Of a stretch of DNA of 64,000 nt, positions 3,382 through 61,784 are shown piece after piece (position 1 is the stretch's first letter; every line of letters begins with the position of its first letter). The stretch is from contig CP136061.1 of assembly GCA_032622095.1 (NCBI GenBank), positions 82,186,324 through 82,250,323 of the forward strand. The letters are read 5' to 3'. Made by a program: the position numbers and the translations under genes. A model generated the notes under the pieces. That model did no database searches and was not told the origin of the DNA. It worked only from the letters and a program-made list of their open reading frames with translations. This DNA is from Siphonodentalium dalli (lineage: Eukaryota; Mollusca; Scaphopoda; Gadilida; Siphonodentaliidae).

Positions 3382-4550
3382 AAGGCATGGATACGATTCC
3401 CATGCCACAATTAATCAATACTGCTATATGTATCAAGGACAGTACCGGTAGCCATTTTTATTGTTGAAGGAAACATGTTATTCAAGTTGATTGGCTACTT
3501 TGCATCGATTGTATAATGTTGATATTTTTTTATATGCTAGGTCATTGATCATGCGAGAAAAGTTCAATCAATTATGTACTGCACATGTTATAATTTCTAT
3601 CGTAACCAAAGCCTGAAATGAGTCGCCTTTAGAACAATAGGTCTGAAACGATTCATCGAAATTTCTACGAATCGTGAATTATTTTTTACAATTTGATTCA
3701 CAATCCGTTTCGTCACATTTGATACATACGTAAATGATTCATCTCAGGTTAGGCCAAAAAAAAAGTTTTGGTTCTGAGGCCCCGCCGCATTGAATAAAAA
3801 GGGCCGCATTAGGCCTTTTTATTGCAATGCCTGATGTTATGACAAAAAAACTTACAAAACTTTTTTTGTTTTGTTGGGATTTTATCAACATGTCCATAGC
3901 AGATATGTGTTGAATATTAGTGTGCATTGAGCTCTAACATGTAATGTGTTAAAAAGTGACTTGCAGGCTTACAACATGAAGTAGATGACCACAATTAAGA
4001 AAATGATTAGCTGATCCTCATGCTCTTCTTACAATTAGTCATTGTGAACAACTTACACTAATTGTAACTTTATACAATTGAAAGGCACAGGACTAAATTC
4101 AGGATCACATATTAGAATGGGGAGGTATCGGTTTTTAGACAACAATAACAGTAGTTAATGTCAGGGGCAATATATATTGTTAGGTCATCCCAGTCATACA
4201 CTGGTAGTACAATGTCATTTTTATATAAGACTAAATGAGTTTATATGCATAACAGTTCCCTCTACCTTTCTGGTTATTACTAGACAGAGGAAGGTATCTT
4301 TGTCCATGCTTTATACTATGCGCAGAAAAAAATAAAAATAAAACCCTCCCTCCCTCATTGATTTGAAGAAAAAAATTGCCCGAGAACCAAAAAACTTTTT
4401 TGTTTTGGCCTTACCTATGTTTAATACATTTAAAAAATTGGTTCCGGTATTCTCACAAAATTTAATTGGCAACTCGTATATTTCTGTAACTAATAAACTG
4501 CTGCGAACTTGCAACTTGAATTGGAAATCGTATGTTTCTGTTTATTTAAA
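3382..4550. other. No gene recognised
   Basis: AT-rich. Around 3640-3715 there are overlapping GATTCAT/GAATCGTGAATT words that could be the core of an eroded hAT-like MITE. Nothing else is identifiable. Confidence 0.5.
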
Positions 4551-4552
4551 TG

Positions 4553-4702
4553 AAATGTACTATCAAACCTTTCACTTTTGTGACAGTAAAATTAACCACG
4601 AAGTGACCTTCGTTACTATGATATGAACCTTATAAAGCAATATTCTTTTTGGCTGCTCTGGATTTCACTAGCCAATCAGATGTGCTGTATTGAACTTGCA
4701 TG
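4553..4702 (+). repeat. Left direct repeat flanking satellite array
   Basis: It contains GAACCTTATAAAGCAATATTC, GGCTGCTCTGGATTTC and TAGCCAATCA. The same words occur in the same order at 6066-6215, just beyond the array, so the 4.7-6.1 kb array sits between two ~150 bp direct repeats (about 75-80 percent identical by eye). They may mark a segmental duplication or recombination around the array. Confidence 0.6.
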
Positions 4703-6060
4703 CCATGGGTTGGCATCCGTAGTCCATCCATCAACAATTTCTTTGGCTACAGGCGGCATCCTTCTGATCATCATGAAACTTCATATGGATCCTCGGGGTG
4801 ACCACTAGATGGGAGCCATAAATTTTTCCCGAAATTCGATAAAAAACATTGCCGCCAGCAGCCGTTTTGGATTTCAAATTTGAATCCATCGGCACATCTG
4901 CAGTCGCATTTATTGGAGCAATGTTTTGAAATTTACAGGCATGTTTAGGATCGTCTCTAGATGGGACCCATCAAATTTAAGCGATTTATTTTATGAAAAA
5001 CATGGCCACCAACAGCCATTTTTGATTTTACTCTTTGCATGATAAAATTCTTTACACAACCTACAGGCCACATCACTTATATGATCGCTACCAAATTTGA
5101 TATGGATCTTCAGGGTGACCACTAGATGGGAGCCATCAAATATTTCCGACTTGCATTGGAAAACATGGTCGCCAGTGGCCATCTTGTATTGTAATCTTTG
5201 CATGACTAAATCCTTCGGCATTTCAAATTTAATTTCATCGGCACACCCTGCAGCCCGCATATATCAGAAATGTTGGAAATTTATAGGCATGATTAGGACC
5301 ACCTCTAGATGGGAGCTATCAAATTTAAAGTTTTTTCGGTGAAAAATGTCTATCGGCGGCCATCATGTATTTTACTCTTTGGATGACTAAATCCTTTGGC
5401 ACACTCTACAGACCACATCCCTTATGCTATCATCACTAAACATTAAATTTTTCTTCAGGGTAACCTCTAAATGGGAGCCATTGATTTTTTTCTGAAATTC
5501 GTTAAAAACATGGCTGCCATCAGCCATCTTGGATTTTACTCTTAGTATGACTAAATCCTTTGGCATACCCTACAGACCACACCCTTCATCCGATTGTCAC
5601 CAAACTTCATATGGATTTTCTGGGTGCCATTAGATGGGAGCCATTTTTTTTCTTCAGAATTTCATTAAAAAACATGGCCGCCAGTGGCCATCTTGGATTT
5701 TACTCTTTGCATGACTAAATCGTTTGGCACACCATACATGCCACATCCCTCATCCTATCTTCACCAAACTTCATATGGTTCTTCGGTGTAACCTCTAGAT
5801 GAGAGCTGTCCAATTTCTCCGAAGTTCATTAAATAACATGGCTGCCAGTAGCCATCTTGCATTTCACATTTGAATCCATCGGCACCCGCTGCAGCTCACA
5901 TTTATTGGAGAAATGTTTGAAAAGAAAATAAATTCATATACACAATACAATCCCTTTACTGAAACTTGTGACTTTCCTTCTTGATCATTCTATTGACTGC
6001 TCAGCATACAATTATTAACACCTCCGCAAGTTGAGCTACAGTGTCATTGGCACTTTCATT
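4703..6060 (+). repeat. Diverged satellite array, ~164/155 bp monomers
   Basis: Tandem monomers each carry AGATGGGAGCCAT, an ACATGGCYGCCAG block, GCCATCTTGGATTTTACTC and a CACATCCCTCATCC-like block. GCCATC anchors at about 5359, 5523, 5687 and 5850 give a 164 bp spacing. Monomers with a TTTCAAATTTGAATCC variant are shorter. The 3' end has GTTGAGCTACAGTGTCATTGG and CACTTTCATT. This is the same family as 10571-11154 and 24127-27642, but its monomers are more diverged from each other, implying an older or less homogenised copy. Confidence 0.8.
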
Positions 6061-6065
6061 TTAAA

Positions 6066-6215
6066 AGAAGTGTACACTCCAACCTGTCAATTTTGACCTA
6101 TTAGAATTAGCCGCAAAGTGACCTTAGCTACTATGACATGAACCTTATAAAGCAATATTCATTTGGCTGCTCTGGATTTCTATAGCCAATCAAATGCATT
6201 GTATTGAAATAGCAT
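6066..6215 (+). repeat. Right direct repeat flanking satellite array
   Basis: Partner of 4553-4702, with the same GAACCTTATAAAGCAATATTC, GGCTGCTCTGGATTTC and TAGCCAATCA words in order. It starts right after the end motif of the satellite unit. Confidence 0.6.
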
Positions 6216-7484
6216 GCATACTACTTGTAATAATAACAGCACGTACGTTTATAACGACAACACAGACTAGAAAAAATACGATGAACAAAAAACTTGGAAA
6301 ATTTAAACAAATGTCCACTGTAAAAAAGTTGACATTGGATTGGACATTTCTTATACTGGTCAACTGACCAGCCTTGTACAAATTATTATGTACCTACATA
6401 TGTATCCTATGCCCTACACTGTCAAGGTCCAATAGGGGTATAACGATTAATCGCAATACATTCTTTCTGAAGAATCATATCATGATACGTTTTAACAGAT
6501 GTATCGCGATGCGCTTATTCCCACATTTTGATATACATGCAGTTTGGACATACATGTATATAGTTCCTTAAAGTCATTAGCTTCACTCCCGGTGGGCATA
6601 TATTTGATGTCAGACAGAACTGTGCCCGACATACCACAAGAAAGGTCATAAAAAACTAGAAAGAAAACCCCAATGTGGCATATTATTAGTGCGGTACTCG
6701 CCCTGTATTAAATTGTTGAAAACTGCGATCAGAGTAAGAAATCTTCTCAGATACTAACACATTTTCGGAGCGAATCAGCGCGCGGAGTCTCATGGAATTA
6801 TATTCGGAGGAAATCGGAACCACCCGAATAACGACGATCGGCTGGCACGCACGACTGGGAGAACAGCCAAAACAAATGCCGGCATGTCGATAACGAAAGT
6901 AGATTCAACAAAAAGAGACAAAAACAAACAAAATAATAGGGTGCCTATCATAGTTTTTGCATTCAAGTTTTCTAAGTAAAATGTCGACAATTATTTGGCA
7001 ACTAACAAAGTTTTCACACTCTGTATATATATTTATATATATATGGATTTTTTGCAAATTTAGGAGAGAATGAGTACGTATTCACAGTGTGCAAAAGACG
7101 ATTGGCACACCTCCGAAATTATCCAGGTTCACCAATAATAAACAAATCTGGGAATTCTGCCTTCCAATCTAACGTCAACATATTTGGCCGAATACAAGGT
7201 GAAGTTATCTGCATGCGAATTATTGACTTCTGTAAATGTAAATTATAAGCAATATTTCAATAATATTTGACATCACAATAGACCAATCGTGCTGAGCTAG
7301 ATCGATTGGTCTTCCTGACACTGTTGTAAGAGATATCTTGAATATTGAAATTTTGTTTGCTTGAAGATTTGTTCAAATTTATGATGAATATACCAGCAAA
7401 AAATTATACATTGTCTTTCATTAGTTTCAAAATTGTCTTTCATTGGTTTCAAAATGAATAAGAATAATTTTTTTACAAAAAAAT
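6216..7484. other. No gene recognised; one hAT-like end
   Basis: At 6426-6520 the sequence AGGGGTATAACGATTAATCG followed by TATCGCGATGCG resembles a hAT-like terminus. At 6790-6990 (minus) there is a 66-codon frame with a hydrophobic stretch, but nothing supports it as a gene. A TATATA run lies at 7025-7043. The remainder is not recognisable. Confidence 0.5.
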
Positions 7485-9580: not shown

Positions 9581-10570
9581 AACACTTCTTTACTTCCATC
9601 CAATTTTAACTGTCAATGATTGAGTCCATCTTATGGTATATTTATTTGGGCCTATATAAACTCAAAAATTGAAGAAAACATAATTCCATATGGATATCTA
9701 TATCACTATCGCTGTCCCAAACAAATACGGTCTGTACTAGAATAGTGAATAGCAATATGGCACACATGTAGCATTGCACAGGTAATTAAACAGTTTGAAA
9801 TACACATGTAAGACAACTCTTTCTGCACGAGACTGAACCTGCTGTAGTTCGATCATAAAATCGGTCAACGATCTGCAACGATTACAAATTTCTATAAATA
9901 GTAACATTTTCAACTGTTACCGTTATTCACTGCTCGATCATGATCACTTTGATTATAATTCTTTCATAACTCGGTCAATGTTCTTCCGTTGGTGATTTCA
10001 GGCAATAATTCCTTTTATATCCCTCCCATTCGAATTGACTATACCGCTTGTTTTTCGTTTTATTAAGCTGATGTTACGCTATTCCAGCAAACAGCCTCCC
10101 TCCACGGAAGCTATTTTCTGAGAACGAAAGCCGACTCAATCCCGACCAAGTCGGAAGTGTTCGGATGTTTCCGCGACTGCACACGACAACTCGTTTGTGT
10201 ATTTATATCGCGTTTACAGTGGAATTATTCGTCCCGATTGAGGGAAAGTAAATAGTTAGTTACGTGGCCGTATAATTAGTACAAACTGATATCTGGTTAG
10301 GGCATTTCGTGTATGGGGGTTATTTTATTCAGTCTTTCCACAGAATAACGCAGGGAACTCAATTGTGAGGTTCAATTTACGTTTCACATCACTTTAATGC
10401 CTGTGAGTGGTAAAAAAAAAAGGTAAATCAACCATTCAACACTTAAGTGTCCAACTAAAGCCAAATGATAATTCAAATTTTTCAGTGTAACTATATAAGC
10501 TTGAGCATGGAATAGTATGCTGTGAGCTGGCCACTATTTGTCACTGCTGTTTGAAATATCAATAATGTTT
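9581..10570. other. No gene recognised
   Basis: AT-rich, with no repeat family shared with the rest of the window and no convincing frame, splice pattern or RNA gene. Confidence 0.6.
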
Positions 10571-11154
10571 AGCTCAACTTGACAAATATAAAAAGTTAAG
10601 TTTGAGCTATTGCCATGGGTTGGCATTCGTCATCCATGTGGGTGTCCGTGATCCGTCAACAATTTCCTTTAGCACACCCTACAGGTCACATCTCTCATCC
10701 GATCACTGCCAACCTTCATATGGATCTTCGGAGTGACCACTAGATGGGAGCCACAATATTTTCCGAAATTTTTTTAAAACAAGGCTGCCAGCAACCATCT
10801 TCGATTTCAAATTGAATCCATCAGCACGCCCTTCAGCCCATATTTAAATTGTTTTGAAAATTTACAGGCATGCTCAGGATGACATCTAGATGGGAGCCAC
10901 CAATTATTTTTTTCCAAAATTTTCCTCAACAGCCATCTTGGATTTTACTCTTTGCATCTCTACAGGACACATCCCGCACCCAATTGTCACGAAACTTTAT
11001 ATTGATCATCTGGGTGACCTATAGATGGGAGCTTACTATTTTTTCCAAATCTGTTAAAAAAACATGGCTGCCAGCGGTTGTCTTGAATGTTACTCTTTGT
11101 ATTTTGTCATTAGCCCCTCTCCATGTTGAGCATTAGTGTCATTTACACTTTCAT
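10571..11154 (+). repeat. Short copy of the satellite-carrying unit
   Basis: It starts AGCTCAACTTGAC and shortly after has AAGTTTGAGCTATTGCCATG, giving an inverted-repeat start, then GTCCGTGATCCGTCAACAAT. Three or so diverged monomers follow (GATGGGAGCCA, GCCATCTTGGATTTTACTC). The unit ends with ATGTTGAGCATTAGTGTCAT and ACACTTTCAT. Its start and end match the 24127-27642 unit, so this is a complete but short copy with few monomers. Confidence 0.75.
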
Positions 11155-17232: not shown

Positions 17233-18007
17233 AATTTCACCGCCTGGTGGGACCCATTTAAAAAAAATACATTCCCTGTGTCTAATCCTACATTTTGATA
17301 TACCATACGTCCCATTATATTGAATATACCAGCTGAAATCGATCCTGTAATTGTAAACATCGAGTCTATTTTTAGCTGTTTTATCGGCGCGTGTTTGCGT
17401 GTTCGCCATTGCAATATTCGCACTAAAACAGCCATATTGTAGCTAAAAACGAATGCACAGTATTCCACTGCGTTATTTGATACCCAAAACTTGTTGTTTG
17501 CTAGCGTATTCATCGAGAAATCTAAATTCTAAACATTAATGTCGAACGCAGTTTTTCGTGTTTGTGGCATTTTATGTTAGGTCAGTTGTCGACCGAATTA
17601 TGTAACTTCCGTTGTCCGGTCAGTGACGGGGTTAATATGTGTGGATAGGGCGAATGTGGATCTTTCGTGAGACACCAAAAAGGAGCCCTCTACGCGCTGT
17701 ATTCCTCGAGATATCGGCCGTCCCACGCAATTTGAAAATCCCGTCCCGCAGATTGTCATGCTATCCCAAATTCCACCCCATGTTAGGTCAGTTGTCGATC
17801 AAATAATGCAATTGATGGTGTCCGGTCAGTGGCGGGGTTAATATGTGTGGATAGGGCGAATATGGGCATTTCGTTAGACACCAAAATGAGCCCCCAACGA
17901 CCTGTATTCCTCGAGATATCGGCCGTCCCACGCAATTTGAAATTCTGTCCCGCAGATTGTCGTTTTGTCCCATATCCCATCCCATCCCGCAGATTGTCAT
18001 GTCCCGA
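17233..18007 (+). repeat. Long inverted repeat, left arm
   Basis: The outer end is AATTTCACCGCCTGGTGGGA and the inner end is GACAATC-type sequence ending TGTCATGTCCCG. The arm matches 18706-19460 in inverted orientation, about 95 percent by eye. Inside it is a ~208 bp tandem duplication (TGTTAGGTCAGTTGTCGA at 17575 and 17783; CTCGAGATATCGGCCGTCCC in both). Mirrored open frames of 60-100 codons in both arms arise from the shared DNA and are not evidence of genes. Confidence 0.85.
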
Positions 18008-18705
18008 GTTATATATATATCTCAAACGCTAACGTCACATCTATGTGTTAATTAATTACCGGTGACTGAGTGTCGAACATAAGCCTTGTGTTCGGCTTTT
18101 CTATGCCGAACACTAAACGCGTTTGACAAAATATCGAATAAAACACTTATTATTGGCACAAACTCCACCAAACATCGTATAGTAATAGTGTGAACATGAA
18201 TAAATATGTCTATGAACTTTATTCGTGAAATTTCCCATTATCTGGACTTGTGTTCGGTTATGTTCGGTTGTGTTCGGTTGTGTTCGGCTTTTATGAGGAA
18301 TTGATTATATATAAGCTCAATTTTCTCGCATTTTACGCAACGAAACAATACAATGTTATGCATCATTCGAAAGCATAGCCTCTCCCCTTCTTTAATATTG
18401 CAACATTTAATCACTACTTTTGATAACTAAGTGTATATTTGACCAGGAACGTCGAGCGGTGAATCGGAAATTAGCAAAAAAAAGAAAAAATTTCGAGTAA
18501 CAGGAATGAGAAACAGATATATAAGCTCAATTTTCTCGCATTTTACGCAATGAAACAATACATATCATATATAATTCGAAAGCATAGCCTCTCCACTTCA
18601 TGAATAATGCAATATTTAAACACTACTTTTGACCAATAAGCGTATATTTGGCCAGGAACGTCGAGCGGTGAATAAGAAATTATCAACAAAAAAACAAAAC
18701 AAATT
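18008..18705. repeat. Spacer of the long inverted repeat
   Basis: Holds the second hairpin-headed repeat (18077-18228), a short TTCGGTTGTG ladder at 18250-18290, and two direct copies (18310-18460 and 18520-18680) of a segment starting AAGCTCAATTTTCTCGCATT and ending ACGTCGAGCGGTGAAT. No gene. Confidence 0.75.
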
Positions 18706-19460
18706 CGGGACATGACAATCTGCGGGATGGGATGGGATATGGGACAAAACGACAATCTGCGGGACAGAATTTCAAATTGCGTGGGACGGCCGATATCTCG
18801 AGGAATACAGGGCGTAGGGGGCTCATTTTTGTGTCTAACGAAAGGCCCATATTCGCCCTATCCATACATCTTAATCCCGCCACTGACCGGACAACAGAAG
18901 TTGCATTATTTGATCGACAACTGACCTAACATGGGGTGGAATTTGGGATAGAATGACAATCTGCGGGACAGGATTTTCAAATTGTGTGGGACGGCCGATA
19001 TCTCGAGGAATACAGCGCGTAGAGGGCTCCTTTTGGTGTCTAACGAAAGGTCCACAGTCGCCCTATCCATACATATTAACCTCGCCACTGACCGGACACA
19101 GGCAGTTACATTATTCGGTCGACAAATGACCTAACATAAAATGCCACAAACACGAAAAACTGCGTTCGACATTAATGTTTATAATTTAGATTTCTCGATG
19201 AATACGCTAGCAAACAACCAGTTTTAGGTATCAAATAACGCAGTGGAATACTGTGCATTCGTTTTTAGTGCGAATATTGTAATGGCGAACACGCAAACAC
19301 GCGCCGATAAAACAGCTAAAAATAGACTCGATGTTTACAATTACAGGATCGATTTCAGCTGGTATATTCAATATAATGGGGCGTATAGTATATCAAAATG
19401 TAGGATTAGACACAGGGAATGTATTTTTTCTCCAAATGGGTCCACCAGGCGGTGAAATTG
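18706..19460 (-). repeat. Long inverted repeat, right arm
   Basis: Reverse complement of 17233-18007. The inner end CGGGACATGACAATCTGCGG lies at 18706 and the outer end GGCGGTGAAATT at 19460. It contains both halves of the 208 bp duplication. The outer ends form a terminal inverted repeat, but no clear target duplication was seen next to them. The whole structure is about 2.2 kb and could fold into a giant hairpin. Confidence 0.85.
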
Positions 19461-23924: not shown

Positions 23925-24126
23925 CATCAATGATCATAACGCAAGTTGTGGTTGATGAACAAAATTGACTATTCTGTCCTATATACATTGAATACTAACA
24001 TTTATGATGCAAATTGATTAATTGTTACTATTTCAACCACTGACATAATAGAATTATTGGATTTTTATATCACAGATTTGACATCAAAATCGGCAAAATT
24101 TCACTTTTCAGGTTTGGACCATTTTT
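23925..24126 (+). mobile_element. Long-TIR element, partial copy, arm piece 1
   Basis: GTGGTTGATGAACAAAATTG, GACTATTCTGTCCTATATAC and ATTGAATACTAACATTTATG match 50850-51030 of the intact left arm at 50-51.5 kb. The match breaks exactly where the satellite unit starts at 24127 and resumes after 27642. Confidence 0.8.
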
Positions 24127-27100
24127 AGCTCAACTTACTTGTAAGTTTGAGCTATTGTCATGGTTTGGCGTCCGTCGTCCGTGTGTCCGTGTGTCCGTGT
24201 GTGCGTGTGTGCGTGTGTGCGTGTGTCCGTCAACAATTTCCTTTGGCGCGGGCTACAGGTCGTACCTTTGGTCTGATCTTTATGAAATTTTGCATGAATG
24301 TTGACATTGACATGTAGATGGGAAACGAGTCATTTTGGGGTCATTCGGCCAAAAAACATGGCCGCTGGTAGCCATCTTGGATTTCAAAATTCAATCCATT
24401 GGCGCGGGCTACAGGTCGTACTGTTCTTTTGATCATCATGAAATTTGTCATGGATGTTAATATTGACATGTAGATGGGAACGAGTCATTTTGGGGTCGTT
24501 CGGCCAAAAAACATGGCCATCAGCAGCCATCTTGGATTTTACTCTTTGCATGACTAAATCATTTGGCGCAGGCTACAGGTCGTAGTTTTGATTGGAACTT
24601 CATGAAATTTGTCATGGATGTTAACAATGACATGTAGATGGGAACGAGTGATTTTGGGGTTGTTCGGCCAAAAAACATGGCCGCCAGCAGCCATCTTGGA
24701 TTTTACTCTTTGCATGACTAAATCCTTTGGCGCGGGCTACAGGTCGTACCTTTGGTCTGATCTTTATGAAATTTGTCATGAATGTTGACATTGGCATGTA
24801 GATGGGAACGAGTCATTTTGGGGTCATTCGGCCAAAAAACATGGCCACTGGTGGCCATTTTGGATTTCAAAATTCAATCCATTGGCGCGGGCTACAGGTC
24901 GTACTGTTCGTCTGATCATTATGAAATTTGTCATGGATGTTAATATTAACATGTAGATGGGAACGAGTGATTTTGGGGTCGTTCGGCCAAAAAACATGGC
25001 CGCTGGCAGCCATCATGGATTTTACTCTTTGCATGACTAAATCCTTTGGCGCGGGCTACAGGTCGTACCTTTGGTCTGACCTTTATTAAATTTGTCATGA
25101 ATATTGATATTGACATGTATATGGGAACGAGTCATTTTGGGGTCATACGGCCAAAAAACATGGCCGCTGGCAGCCATCTTGGATTTTACTCTTTGCATGA
25201 CTAAATCCTTTGCCGCAGGCTACAGGTCGTAGTTTTGATCAGAACTTCATGAAATTTGTCATGGATGTTAACAATGACATGTCAATGGGAACGAGTGATT
25301 TTGGGGTTGTTCGGCCAAAAAACATGGCCGCCAGCAGCCATCATGGATTTTACTCTTTGCATGACTAAATCCTTTGGCGCGGGCTACAGGTCGTACCTAT
25401 GGTCTGATCTTTATGAATTTTGTCATGAATGTTGACATTGACATGTAGATGGGAACGAGTGATTTTGGGGTCATTCGGCCAAAAAACATGGCCGCTGGTG
25501 GCCATTTTGGATTTCAAAATTCAATCCATTGGCGCGGGCTAAAGGTCGTGCTGTTCGTCTGATCATCATGAAATTTGTCATGGATGTTAATATTGACATG
25601 TAGATGGGAACGAGTGATTTTGGGGTCGTTCGGCCAAAAAACATGGCCGCTGGCAGCCATCATGGATTTTACTCTTTGCATGACTAAATCCTTTGGCGCG
25701 GGCTACAGGTCGTACCTTTGGTCTGACCTTTATTAAATTTGTCATGAATATTGATATTGACATGTATATGGGAACGAGTCATTTTGGGGTCATACGGCCA
25801 AAAAACATGGCCGCTGGCAGCCATCTTGGATTTTACTCTTTGCATGACTAAATCCTTTGGCGCAGGCTACAGGTCGTAGTTTTGATCAGAACTTCATGAA
25901 ATTTGTCATGGATGTTAACAATGACATGTAGATGGGAACGAGTGATTTTGGGGTTGTTCGGTCAAAAAACATGGCCGCCAGCAGCCATCATGGATTTTAC
26001 TCTTTGCATGACTAAATCCTTTGGCGCGGGCTACAGGTCGTACCTATGGTCTGATCTTTATGAATTTTGTCATGAATGTTGACATTGACATGTAGATGGG
26101 AACGAATGAGTTTGGGGTCATTCGGCCAAAAAACATGGCCGCTGGTGGCCATTTTGGATTTCAAAATTCAATCCATTGGCGCGGGCTACAGGTCGTGCTG
26201 TTCGTCTGATCATCATGAAATTTGTCATGGATGTTAATATTGACATGTAGATGGGAACGAGTGATTTTGGGGTCGTTCAGCCAAAAAACATGGCCGCCAG
26301 CAGCCATCTTGGATTTTACTCTTTGCATGACTAAATTCTTTGGCGCGGGCTACAGGTTGTAGCTTTGGTCAGAACTTCATGAAATTTGTCATGGATGTTA
26401 ACAATGAGATGTAGATGGGAACGAGTGATTTTGGGGTTGTTCGGCCAAAAAACATGGCCGCCAGCAGCCATCATGGATTTTACTCTTTGCATGACTAAAT
26501 CCTTTGGCGCGGGCTACAGGTCGTACCTATGGTCTGATCTTTATGAATTTTGTCATGAATGTTGACATTGACATGTAGATGGGAACGAGTCATTTTGGGG
26601 TCATTCGGCGAAAAAACATGGCTGCTGGTGGCCATTTTGGATTTCAAAATTCAATCCATTGGCACGGGCTACAGGTTGTGCTGTTCGTCTGATCATCATG
26701 AAATTTGTCATGGATGTTAATATTGACATGTAGATGGGAACGAGTGATTTTGGGGTCGTTCGTCCAAAAAACATGGCCGTCAGCAGCCATCTTGGATTTT
26801 ACTCTTTGCATGACTAAATCCTTTGGCGCGGGTTACAGGTCGTACCTTTGGTCTGACCTTTATGAAATTTGTCATGAATATTGATATTGACATGTATATG
26901 GGAACGAGTCATTTTGGGGTCATACGGCCAAAAAACATGGCCGCTGGCAGCCATCTTGGATTTCAAAATTCAATCCATTGGCACGGGCTACAGGTCGTAC
27001 TGTTTGTCTGATCATCATGATATTTATCATGGATGTTAATATTAACATGTAGATGGGAACGAGTCATTTTGGGGTCGTTTGGCTAAAAAACATGTCCGCC

Positions 27101-27642
27101 AGCAGCCATATTGGATTTTACTCTTTGCATGAATAAATCCTTTGGTGCGGGCTACAGGTCGTAGCTTGGTCGGAACTTCATGAAATTTGTCATGTATGTT
27201 AACAATGACATGTAGATGGGAAACGAGTCATTTTGGGGTCGTTCAGCCGAAAAACATGGCCGCCAGCAGCCATCTTGGATTTTACTCTTTGCATGACTAA
27301 ATCCATTGGCACAGGCTACAGGTCATACCTTTGATCAGATCATTATGATATTTGTAAAGGCTGTGGATGGGAACAAGTCATTTTGGGGTAATTCGGAAAA
27401 AAACATGGCTGCCGGTGGCCATTTTAGAATTTACTCTTTGCATCAATAAATCCTTTGGCACACCATAATCACCACATCCCTGATCCGATCATTATGAAAC
27501 CGGTTATGAATGTTGATATTGACATGTACATCTAGTCTTACTTAGACATTTCAATTAGCACTTTTCCTATTCCTCCATTTACTGTCGACCATTAAATTAT
27601 TCCCCTACCTAAGTTGAGCTACAGTGTCATTGACACTTTCAT
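24127..27642 (+). repeat. Satellite-carrying unit with higher-order repeats
   Basis: The unit starts AGCTCAACTT, closely followed by AAGTTTGAGCTATTG, so the start folds on itself. A GTGTGTCCGTGTG run and GTCAACAATTTCC follow. About 20 monomers come next, each with GGCTACAGGTCGTA, CATGAAATTTGTCATGGATG, GACATGTAGATGGGAACGAG and CGGCCAAAAAACATGGCC. Anchor positions 24346, 24501, 24665, 24829, 24984, 25148, 25312, 25476 and 25631 give spacings of 155 or 164 bp. The 155 bp type has GATTTCAAAATTCAATCC; the 164 bp type has GATTTTACTCTTTGCATGAC. A four-monomer block of 647 bp repeats (24829, 25476, 26123). The unit ends GTTGAGCTACAGTGTCATTG plus ACACTTTCAT. No protein is encoded. Confidence 0.92.
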
Positions 27643-27692
27643 TTCAAGTAAAATGGAACTATCTTTGGTATCAAAGGTGTTTATTGTTTCAC
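27643..27692 (+). mobile_element. Long-TIR element, partial copy, arm piece 2
   Basis: TTCAAGTAAAATGGAACTAT and CTTTGGTATCAAA match 51030-51068 of the intact arm. The piece is only 50 bp, squeezed between two insertions. Confidence 0.75.
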
Positions 27693-50109: not shown

Positions 50110-51500
50110 ATAGTCTGGTCGATAAACTAAAAATTTATGATCAACCTAGAATAAATTCGGACTAAATTGGTTTATATATCATTTTGAAGAGGAAGATCTC
50201 CGCTATAACATATCCAAAATCCGCTAAAATCCGCTTTGAGCATTTTTTTGTAATTCAAGATGGCGTCCAATATGGCTGCCATTTTCCGTTAAGTCAGTTT
50301 GTTGCAATTTGATGCAATTATAGTCATAATATCGTGCCATATGTATACATAAGTATACATGTTTGTGAAGCTAAGACATAACGCCACATTTTTATGCCAA
50401 AATTGGAACACACCGCCCAAGATGGCAGTCAATATGGCGACCGGAAGTGGAAAATGTTACGTTTTTTTACTGATATCTTTACGATAAGTTTCTGCTGTTT
50501 GGAACTAGTGAGAATTGTGACTTTATTTTGTATTTAGCATGTTAACAGACCATCGGGGAAATAAAATATGCCATAAGTGGGGTCCCAACCCTTCCGATCA
50601 TTCAAAAAATCGAGTTTACAGAACGCGGTATAACATTTCACACAAAAATCATAATTTGGGATTCTAGTCATATTTCATCAAAAATTGGCAGTACTGTGTA
50701 ATGGAAGTGTTGCATTCTATTTCTTATGAATATTCCGACTCAATCGTATCAAAATTGTCACTTTGGCTCACAATAGCTGCCAAAATGGCGGCCAAAATAT
50801 GAAAAATGGTAAATATTGCACCTGCGTGCCGTGCAACCGCTTATAAGTGGTGGTTAATGAATAAAATTGACTATTCTGTCTTATATACATTGAATACTAA
50901 CATTTATGATGCAACTTGATTAACTTTTACTATTTTAACCACTGAAATTACCAGAATTATGGGATTTTTTGCACAAACTTGGCATCCAAATCGGGGAAAA
51001 CAAATAACTTTTCAGGTTTGCACCATTTTTTCAAGTAAAATGGAACTATCTTTGGAATCAAATGTGATTTTTATTTTTGATCTATCTTAAATGTTTGACA
51101 ATGAGATGTTTTAGACAAAATTACTCAAGATGCCTTACAAAATGGCAACCAAATATGGTAAAAAGTTGATTTGTCATATTTATTCCGAACATTATTACAA
51201 GCTGTTCCGAAAAGGTTGCAAATTGTGACTCACTTGGTTATTAAACATGCTACTTAATCAACTAAATGTTATATTCTGGTTGTCCCAGTACATTATGAGG
51301 CATGACAAATCGGTTTAAGGGATGCAGTATGAATTTTTGCCGAAAACTTCTTTTGGGATTCTGTCTGTCTTTGAACGGAAATTGGCAGAACGTTGAAACG
51401 GAACTGAGAGGGATCATATTATGTGGCTACTCTGGCCCATTAGCATCAACATTTATTAACTTATATACTATTGTCATGAAAACCATTCCATTCGTATTGC
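50110..51500 (+). repeat. Long-TIR element, left arm
   Basis: Landmarks are AAAATCCGCTAAAATCCGCT, TGGCGTCCAATATGGCTGCC, ACTATTCTGTCTTATATAC, GCAAATTGTGACTCACTTGG and GGAACTGAGAGGGATCATAT. All recur in inverted order in the right arm. The arm is uninterrupted and shows the pre-insertion form of the site where the LTR element sits in the right arm (TTGATTAAGTAGC complement near 51250-51262). Confidence 0.85.
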
Positions 51501-54989: not shown

Positions 54990-55205
54990 ATTAAGTTGAT
55001 CAATGTTGATTACAATGGGCCAGAGTAGCCACATACTATGATCCCTCTCAGTTCCGTTTCAACGTTCTGCCCATTTCAGTTTAAAAAAAACATGGACAGA
55101 ATCCCAAAATAAATTTTCGGCAAAATCCATACTGCACCCCTTAAATGAACTTCCATGCCTCTTAAGGTTCTGGGACAACCAGAATATAACATTTAGTTGA
55201 CTAAG
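54990..55205 (-). repeat. Long-TIR element, right arm, inner part
   Basis: ATGATCCCTCTCAGTTCCG, CAGAATCCCAAAATAAATTT and CCAGAATATAACATTTAGTT mirror 51240-51480. The arm is cut at CTAAG (55201-55205) by the LTR element and resumes at 60664. Confidence 0.85.
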
Positions 55206-56139
55206 TGTTTTGGGAGTTCCGCTAAAGGTAAAATAACGACACCACACCAGTTTTGTCAAATGCTTCTATTAATTTCAAATTTGAAATGACAAATGAAAAG
55301 ATATATGAAATAATGTGAACCGACCATTTGCATGTGAAAACAATACAAGCATGAAAGAATATCGCCAAGCGACCATTTACATGTGCATACACTTAAATGA
55401 AAAACACAAATGAAAATATTACATATAAATATAAATCCAATACCAAAATAAATAATAAATAAAAGAGCAAAAGAAAAATCCACATACCCATACGGATGTG
55501 AGCCACCAAAGAAAATGCAAAACGCCCACATGCATGTGAGGTGAAAAAATATAGCAAATGGAAATGTATAAATAATTACAAAATTTAAATTGAAACACCC
55601 ATGCAAATAAATAAAACACTATGAAAAATAAATACCACAGCCAGATATACATATAGCAATGATGCAAACAATTCCAAATGTGGAACATAAATAAGTTACA
55701 AACAAGAACAATATAATTGGATATGCTAAAGTAGCGACAAGAAATGACTTAGAATATATAGATGAAAACGAAATCCCATGGAAGGGCAGTCAAAGAGATA
55801 GGTTTTAAAGAATGAGTGGGGGAAATCAGAGTTACACACTGTTGCAAACACACGATGACGTCACACAAATGCAAACCCATGCAACTAATGAAAATAAAAC
55901 ATAAATGAAACACAGACACACATAAAACTGTTACACAAATAGTCTACTTACACATTGGCGGGTGTTTGGATTATAAAAGATATAAATTAGATGATAAATT
56001 AGACGTAAAATAAACCAAGTAATGTTTTGCTGTCAAATTACAAAGTCAAGTCAGTTTCTTCAACATATCTGGTCCTGAGTATAGGGTTAAGTCATTGAAC
56101 GAACCAAAAACATGTACCAGTCTATCACATCGTGATACA
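55206..56139 (-). repeat. Long terminal repeat (3' LTR relative to coding)
   Basis: 934 bp, nearly identical to 59735-60658. It starts TGTTTTGGGAGTTCCG and ends CATCGTGATACA on the plus strand. It contains a hydrophobic frame on the minus strand that is also present in the other LTR and is not taken to be a gene. Confidence 0.93.
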
Positions 56140-56303
56140 CTCCCCGGGCGATTCACTATTCAGTTTGTTGACATGCAGGATGCACCGAACGATTATATCT
56201 CAATGTCACATTCGAATGGACATGTTTTCGTCTGTTCATCGACAGGAAGAACAAGACCGAGAATATATAGATGAGAATGAGAACCACCATGTCTCTGCAA
56301 CCT

Positions 56304-59714: not shown

Positions 59715-59734
59715 CGTTTTCCCTGTATTTGAAA

Positions 59735-60658
59735 TGTTTTGGGAGTTCCGCTAAAGGTAAAATAACGACACCACACCAGTTTTGTCAAATGCTTCTATTA
59801 ATTTCAAATTTGAAATGACAAATGAAAAGATATATGAAATAATGTGAACCGACCATTTGCATGTGAAAACAATACAATCATGAAAGAATATCGCCAAGCG
59901 ACCATTTACATGTGCATACACTTAAATGAAAAACACAAATGAAAATATTACATATAAATATAAATCCAATACCAAAATAAATAATAAATAAAAGAGCAAA
60001 AGAAAAATCCACATACCCATACGGATGTGAGCCACCAAAGAAAATGCAAAACGCCCACATGCATGTGAGGTGAAAAAATATAGCAAATGGAAATGTATAA
60101 ATAATTACAAAATTTAAATTGAAACACCCATGCAAATAAATAAAACACTATGAAAAATAAATACCACAGCCAGATATACATATAGCAATGATGCAAACAA
60201 TTCCAAATGTGGAACATAAATAAGTTACAAACAAGAACAATATAATTGGATATGCTAAAGTAGCGACAAGAAATGACTTAGAATATATAGATGAAAACGA
60301 AATCCCAAGGAAGGGCAGTCAAAGAGATAGGTTTTAAAGAATGAGTGGGGGAAATCAGAGTTGCAAACACACGATGACGTCACACACATGCAAACCCATG
60401 CAACTAATGAAAATAAAACATAAATGAAACACAGACACACATAAAACTGTTACACAAATAGTCTACTTACACATTGGCGGGTGTTTGGATTATAAAAGAT
60501 ATAAATTAGATGATAAATTAGACGTAAAATAAACCAAGTAATGTTTTGCTGTCAAATTACAAAGTCAAGTCAGTTTCTTCAACATATCTGGTCCTGAGTA
60601 TAGGGTTAAGTCATTGAACGAACCAAAAACATGTACCAGTCTATCACATCGTGATACA
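59735..60658 (-). repeat. Long terminal repeat (5' LTR relative to coding)
   Basis: 924 bp, the partner of 55206-56139. It is followed on the plus strand by the second CTAAG and then the continuation of the long-TIR arm (TAGCATTTTTGATAACC). Confidence 0.93.
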
Positions 60659-60663
60659 CTAAG

Positions 60664-61784
60664 TAGCATTTTTGATAACCAAGTGAGTCACAATCTGCTA
60701 CCTTTTTGGAACATCAGTGAATAATGTTTGGAATATATGTGACAAATAAACATTTTACCAAATTGGGTTGCCATTTTGCAAGCCATCTTGAGCAATATTG
60801 TCTAAAACACCTCATTATGACACAGTTAGCACATATCAAAACAATAAACACAGCTGATACCAAAGAAATTTCCATTTTACTTTAAAAAATGTTTCAAACC
60901 TGAACAGTGATTTTTTGCCGATTTTGAAGCAAAGTCTGTGATAGAAAAATTTGAATAATTCTGGTGATTTTAGTGGTTTCAATGGTAAGAATTAGCCTAG
61001 GTGCATCAGATATGTTGGTTTTCAATGTATGTAAGACAGAATAGTCAATTGTGTGCATCAACAACAACTTATAAGCAGTTACATGGCACACTGGGACAAT
61101 ATTTAAAATATTCCATATTTTGGCCGCCATTTTGGAAGCCATTTTGATCCAAAGTGACGATTTTTGTAACATTGAGTTGGAATATCCATAAAATGTAGAA
61201 AGCATTACTTACATTTGCACAGTTCTTCCAATTTCATGATGAAATATGACTAGAATCCAAATGGTGATATTTTGTGATATGTTATACCGCGTTCTGTAAA
61301 ATCGAATTTTTGAGCAATCTGAAGGGGTTGGGAGCCCATGAATGCCATATTTCTTTGCTCCAATGGTTAGTTAAGGTGTTAATTACAAAATAAAGTCAAA
61401 ATTCTCAACCAGTTCCAAACAGTAGAAACTTATCTTAAAGATATTAGTAAAAAACGTAAAAATTTCCACTTCCGGCCGCCATTTTGGCGGCCATTTATGA
61501 CGGGGAGTTCCAATTTTGGAATAAAACGGTGGGCTTATGTCTTAGCTGCACAAAAATGTATACCAGTGTATACATATGACAAGATTTTCTCACTATAATT
61601 GCGTAGAACTGATTTAACGGAAATGGCAGCCATCTTGGACGCCATCTTGAATTACAAAAATTGCTCAAAGCGGATTTTAGCGGATTTTGGATATGTTATT
61701 GAGGATATATTTCTCTTCAAAATGGTATACAAACCATTTTAGTCCAAATTTATTCTAGGTCAAACCTTTATTCGACCAGACTAT
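60664..61784 (-). repeat. Long-TIR element, right arm, outer part
   Basis: CAAGTGAGTCACAATCTGC, TTGCAAGCCATCTTGAGC, ACTTATAAGCAGTTACATGG, CCATCTTGGACGCCATCTTG and AAGCGGATTTTAGCGGATTT mirror the left arm back to 50110. The frame at 60894-61205 is part of the repeat. Confidence 0.85.

Follow-up and report, generated by a model that had tools for sequence, protein, structure and literature searches.

The window analysed here, a stretch of 64,000 nucleotides of Siphonodentalium dalli DNA, contains a satellite array at 24127-27642 that is the interior of one mobile unit. The first-pass annotation had described this array as a unit with defined ends and set its edges at 24127 and 27642. The unit stands and the edges were right to within a few bases, but counting the Ts against empty sites moves them to 24125 and 27641. 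At these best limits the whole element, TTAGCTC...TTTCA, measures 3517 bp on the + strand, and its ends are common to 21 copies. The host bases TTT (24122-24124), identified from the junction and the empty-site comparison as the TTW of a TTW^T target, lie to its left and a single host T (27642) lies to its right.

The element starts with TT, followed by the 5' subTIR AGCTCAACTT (24127-24136). The subTIR and the near-inverse repeat AAGTTTGAGCT (24143-24153) make up a 5' hairpin (24127-24153). Next come a GTCCGTGT microsatellite (24170-24230), the array of 155/164-bp monomers (24239-27355, with the layout ACBACDBACDBACBACAEB), and a degenerate last monomer with a unique right segment (27356-27610). 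The 3' subTIR AAGTTGAGCT (27611-27620), the inverse of the 5' subTIR, precedes the terminal palindrome AGTGTCATTGACACT (27623-27637), after which TTCA runs to 27641, so that the element finishes in TTTCA. All these parts are on the + strand. The mutually inverted subTIRs, with the 3' one ahead of the palindrome, and the inverted repeat beside the 5' subTIR, then the microsatellite and the tandem repeats, are traits of a HINE. The same holds for the absence of coding capacity. Only one stop-to-stop frame of at least 80 aa overlaps the element, and this longest frame (86 aa, 24044-24304) lies partly in the host flank.

Further copies were collected from the genome assembly (2.23 Gb, 9 contigs) with positions 24100-24700 of the window as query, and the best 40 of 3758 candidate places were scored. 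The window itself aside, the alignments of the scored places start at 24117-24122, at most five bases from the T-run before AGCTC. From the 39 other places, 20 were taken whole and only the 5' junctions were taken from the remaining 19; the window included, complete copies number 21 and left junctions 40. The ends do not vary among the complete copies: both end motifs are present in 21/21, and 20/21 finish in TTTCA (L017 finishes in TTCA). Copies without the end motifs, the case that would speak against a defined unit, were not seen in this set, which was picked by a query bearing the 5' end.

The variable monomer number proposed between fixed, hairpin-forming ends is borne out by the same 21 copies, whose length between AGCTC and the final A varies, as whole monomers are gained or lost, between 2223 and 5137 bp. 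Clustering of 390 of the 394 anchor intervals (145-170 bp; four odd-length intervals in L017, L019 and L028 were left out) separates five monomer types, A of 155 bp, B, C and D of 164 bp and E of 162 bp. Mean differences are 1.5-5.2% within types and 11-24% between types. The array starts with ACBAC in 21/21 copies and ends with EB in 19/21 (the exceptions are L023 and L026). Nine copies share the layout ACBACDBACDBACBACBAEB and most others differ from it by whole monomers or blocks; one of the layout comparisons covered 18 layouts, those of L017, L019 and L028 being left aside. With its starts and ends fixed and its differences at the level of blocks, the array therefore varies in the interior and is constant at the ends. 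Monomer number would shift by slippage or unequal exchange within the array, leaving the ends untouched. This ordered layout lets block gains and losses after a shared ancestor be traced copy by copy. Over its last 230 bp the element has a mean identity of 99.1% among the 21 copies, which suggests that the family was recently active, the copies having been picked by similarity to that of the window; their 3' flanks average 34%.

The element interrupts one arm of a long-TIR element. The same arm had been reported as uninterrupted at 51.03 kb, and this was confirmed: an empty site at 50845-51076 (+ strand) aligns with the flanks 23943-24126 and 27642-27689, as does, inverted, a second one on the other arm at 60839-61070 (- strand). 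Once joined, the flanks match the two empty arms at 84% and 80.5%, and the alignments are free of gaps around the join. For each of the 21 copies, the sequences collected here were then searched with the joined flanks. Matches across the join exist for seven (L012, L013, L014, L018, L024, L027 and the window) and for none of the other 14. Those without a gap within ten bases of the join number 11/15 for L012, 9/10 for L013, 4/4 for L014, 1/1 for L018, 370/527 for L024, 9/9 for L027 and 2/2 for the window. The best match of L027 reaches 99.67% over 300 bp. The best match of L012 (L013, 88%) is gapped near the join and the second best (89%) is gap-free. L012, L013 and L027 match one host repeat family and thus count as separate insertions, not as separate target families. 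In L014 the third target base differs, being TTT against TTG, TTG and GTG in its relatives. A search with the A-type copies had 2368 candidates, and all of the best 40, which were scored, belong to L009, which has a TTAT target and whose joined 120 bases are 100% identical in 40/40; none was scored for five other A-type copies. Altogether, 8/21 copies have empty sites that fit the addition of TTAGCTC...TTTCA at TTW^T, and no empty site was found for 13/21 in these searches. Where the match is clean, no base is duplicated or missing and the order is host TTW, element, host T. L024 was inserted into a related satellite array, within a monomer, and the conserved monomer gives its empty site, GGATTTTACTC.

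The exact 5'-end pattern TTTAGCTCAACTT-N(1-12)-AAGTTNGAGCTATTG, which leaves out copies with A at -3, has 7516 matches in the genome (3836 forward and 3680 reverse), and its backwards-read control has none on either strand. The family thus offers thousands of putative insertions whose junctions can be read. In-place expansion of an ordinary satellite array, with end motifs that are merely the edges of the satellite, would suit the clean 155/164-bp interior observed here. The same ends, however, recur in unrelated 3' flanks and the 5' ends are dispersed in these thousands of places; the exact empty sites refute this origin, to which practically no weight can be given.

Among the pattern matches listed first, on one contig, 22 distinct strings were taken by eye for a comparison of the hairpin. 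In the intact subtypes the inner stem pairs are AC/GT, TAC/GTA or GAC/GTC, and both arms change jointly. In five of the 22 strings the pairing stops at the fixed arms, and in five more it extends by a single pair. The paired changes on both sides of the stem support a functional 5' hairpin, which may have decayed in some copies. In one place (C1:28900130-28919985, L080-L085) six HINE 5' ends lie on one strand within 20 kb. Upstream of each lies the 3' end of another copy, separated from it by a near-identical spacer of about 57 bp. Here element and spacer have been amplified together in tandem. Direct joints of 3' to 5' ends, expected of rolling-circle concatemers, do not occur in these six ends (C1:28.90-28.92 Mb), where the spacer is present in 6/6.

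The insertion at T-runs noticed in the first pass is more exactly one at TTW^T. AGCTC is immediately preceded by TTNTT in 40/40 copies (N is T in 29, A in 10 and G in 1), a string found at 1.1% of the window positions. The final A is followed by T in 21/21 copies, and the position after that varies (T 16, A 4, G 1). These junctions fit a TTW^T target to which the element brings terminal bases of its own, TT at the 5' end and CA at the 3' end. This holds up to a displacement by one T, since TTAGCTC...TTTCA at TTW^T and TAGCTC...TTTCAT following TTWT are indistinguishable. An older copy of the window, at 10571, departs from the pattern with TGTTT. Because the first query carried host flank, a second junction sample of 12 more 5' ends was drawn from the pattern matches, in which T at -3 was selected and -4/-5 were not. 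All 12 have TT at -4/-5, although two of the ends have a flank in common. Further upstream, comparison of the 40 left junctions with the window gave C at -8 in 20/40, C at -7 in 24/40 and A at -6 in 21/40. This CCA preference before TTW is partly confounded, since the query had 27 host-flank bases ending in CCATTTTT. In the second sample (n=12) C at -7 is found in 8/12, A at -6 in 7/12 and C at -8 in only 3/12. From these counts a CA preference before TTW is likely, if not settled, and the outer C is unsupported.

The Ts on both sides of the element, and the two Ts that the 51.03-kb site lacks, could also be read as a TT target duplication left by a cut-and-paste MITE, an older label for pearl-like elements, and inverted subterminal repeats would suit such an origin. 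A TT duplication, on the other hand, requires two Ts after TTTCA, and L009, L010, L019, L024 and L026 have one. L024 and L009 match their empty sites without duplication, and the inverted repeats are subterminal rather than terminal. A MITE is consequently extremely improbable. The first-pass annotation had asked whether the flanks show a constant 2-3 bp duplication or, Helitron-like, none; the empty sites of 8 copies show none.

Canonical Helitrons have 5'-TC and CTRR-3' termini and an A^T target. A derivative of these would share with the element the lack of a target duplication and the 3' hairpin, and A precedes the join in 10/40 insertions. T, however, precedes it in 29/40. The termini are TTAG (40/40) and TTTCA (20/21; TTCA in L017) in place of 5'-TC and CTRR-3', and a subTIR and a 5' inverted repeat are present. 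A canonical Helitron derivative is therefore very unlikely. The T-rich (TT) insertion without target duplication is instead that of a HINE, a non-autonomous Helentron, and the element is assigned to this class with a probability of about 0.94.

HINEs are known from oysters and fruit flies (PMC7492417, PMC4067079). Cg_HINE of Crassostrea gigas has the 5' subTIR, complementary inverted repeat, microsatellite, tandem repeats, 3' subTIR and palindrome in the same order as the element (PMC7492417); with this shared anatomy, the element is a HINE of known kind. The tandem repeats of Cg_HINE are mostly of 140-180 bp, its insertions are T-rich and lack a TSD, and empty sites are found within other repeats, as here (PMC7492417). 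Its published arrays, in contrast, mostly have up to 5 monomers, the longest having 29, whereas the 21 close copies here have 12-30 anchors (PMC7492417). The ordered five-type layout of these 21 copies also sets them apart from Cg_HINE, which is compared by description. DINE-1 and the mite HINEs are similar in their subTIRs, 3' stem-loop, microsatellite and central repeats, and in a TT or T-rich preference with the target unmodified; DINE-1 further has an inverted repeat near the 5' subTIR (PMC4067079). The bivalve pearl elements (CvA, CvE), MgE and DTC84, likened by description, have a comparable architecture with short central-repeat arrays, the pearl repeats being of about 160 bp (PMC7492417, PMC5139131). 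Oyster satellites occur in Helitron-associated and stand-alone forms (PMC8268682). Two published primers of the BIV160 satellite (PMC5139131) match the element with at least 9/25 and at least 9/21 mismatches, so that this comparison of the primers gives no sign of BIV160 here.

New here are the account of the junctions and the order of the five monomer types in the array. For DINE-1 and the mite HINEs the number and side of the flanking Ts are reported as unclear or variable (PMC4067079), in contrast to the 8 resolved copies, which fit two element-borne Ts. The distribution of flanking Ts is left open in that source; the TTAT insertion of L009 settles it for that copy, within the one-T shift. 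It is fairly probable that Helentron-type insertion is base-exact here and not loosely poly-T, with fixed 5'-TT...CA-3' ends joined into (CA)TTW^T; the variability described earlier would then come from T-run targets only, and A-containing targets reveal the true junction. A TTW^T statement of this kind was not met in the passages of the HINE literature consulted, and its absence from print is not claimed. The insertion-site evidence for the family is unusually clean.

The element is then an abundant transposon of rolling-circle type that carries satellite cargo and was apparently recently active, and in this way satellite DNA is spread through the genome. From its family membership we infer transposition of the rolling-circle type by a Helentron protein. 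A Helentron Rep/helicase fused to an endonuclease and provided in trans would recognise the 5' hairpin and subTIR and the 3' subTIR with the palindrome. Subsequently, the element would be copied via a single-stranded intermediate of rolling-circle type and the copy would be joined to a nicked T-rich target. Proteins of this type are encoded in the genome: a PF14214 profile search gave at least 151 matches (150 of 457 candidates scored). One Helentron-type gene has OTU, DUF6570, Rep-like and PIF1 helicase domains, and its C-terminal endonuclease match is weak (E 0.00084, below the Pfam cut-off). An open Helentron-type frame of 2552 aa lies at L078:339-7994, with the OTU protease domain at residues 437-523. 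The ends of the element were not found in the 14.5 kb around one Helentron (L078/L079), nor in 30 Rep loci (L048-L077) covered to 1.5 kb beyond the Rep domain. Three short stretches far downstream (L086-L088) have only one degenerate 5' end (L087). In this weak test of one Helentron surround and short stretches of Rep loci, no autonomous partner with the same ends was found.

Related copies are also present in the window itself, as had been claimed. The start and the end recur in an older HINE copy at 10569-11153 (+ strand), which has a short diverged array; the start motif lies at 10571 and the end, 4 of whose 27 bases are mismatched, at 11128-11154. Without a start, the end recurs with 1 mismatch at 6033-6059, within the 6028-6060 given before, and belongs to another older copy (4700-6058, + strand), whose 5' end is unrecognisable and whose start is approximate. 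A direct repeat of about 159 bp (82%), at 4545-4703 and 6060-6217, flanks the diverged satellite unit ending at 6058. Other repeats of the window include two direct repeats at 55203-56140 and 59732-60659, 99-100% identical and about 4.52 kb apart, which suggest a recent duplication inside the long-TIR element. Long inverted repeats at 17262-19429 are 93-98% complementary around a short centre.
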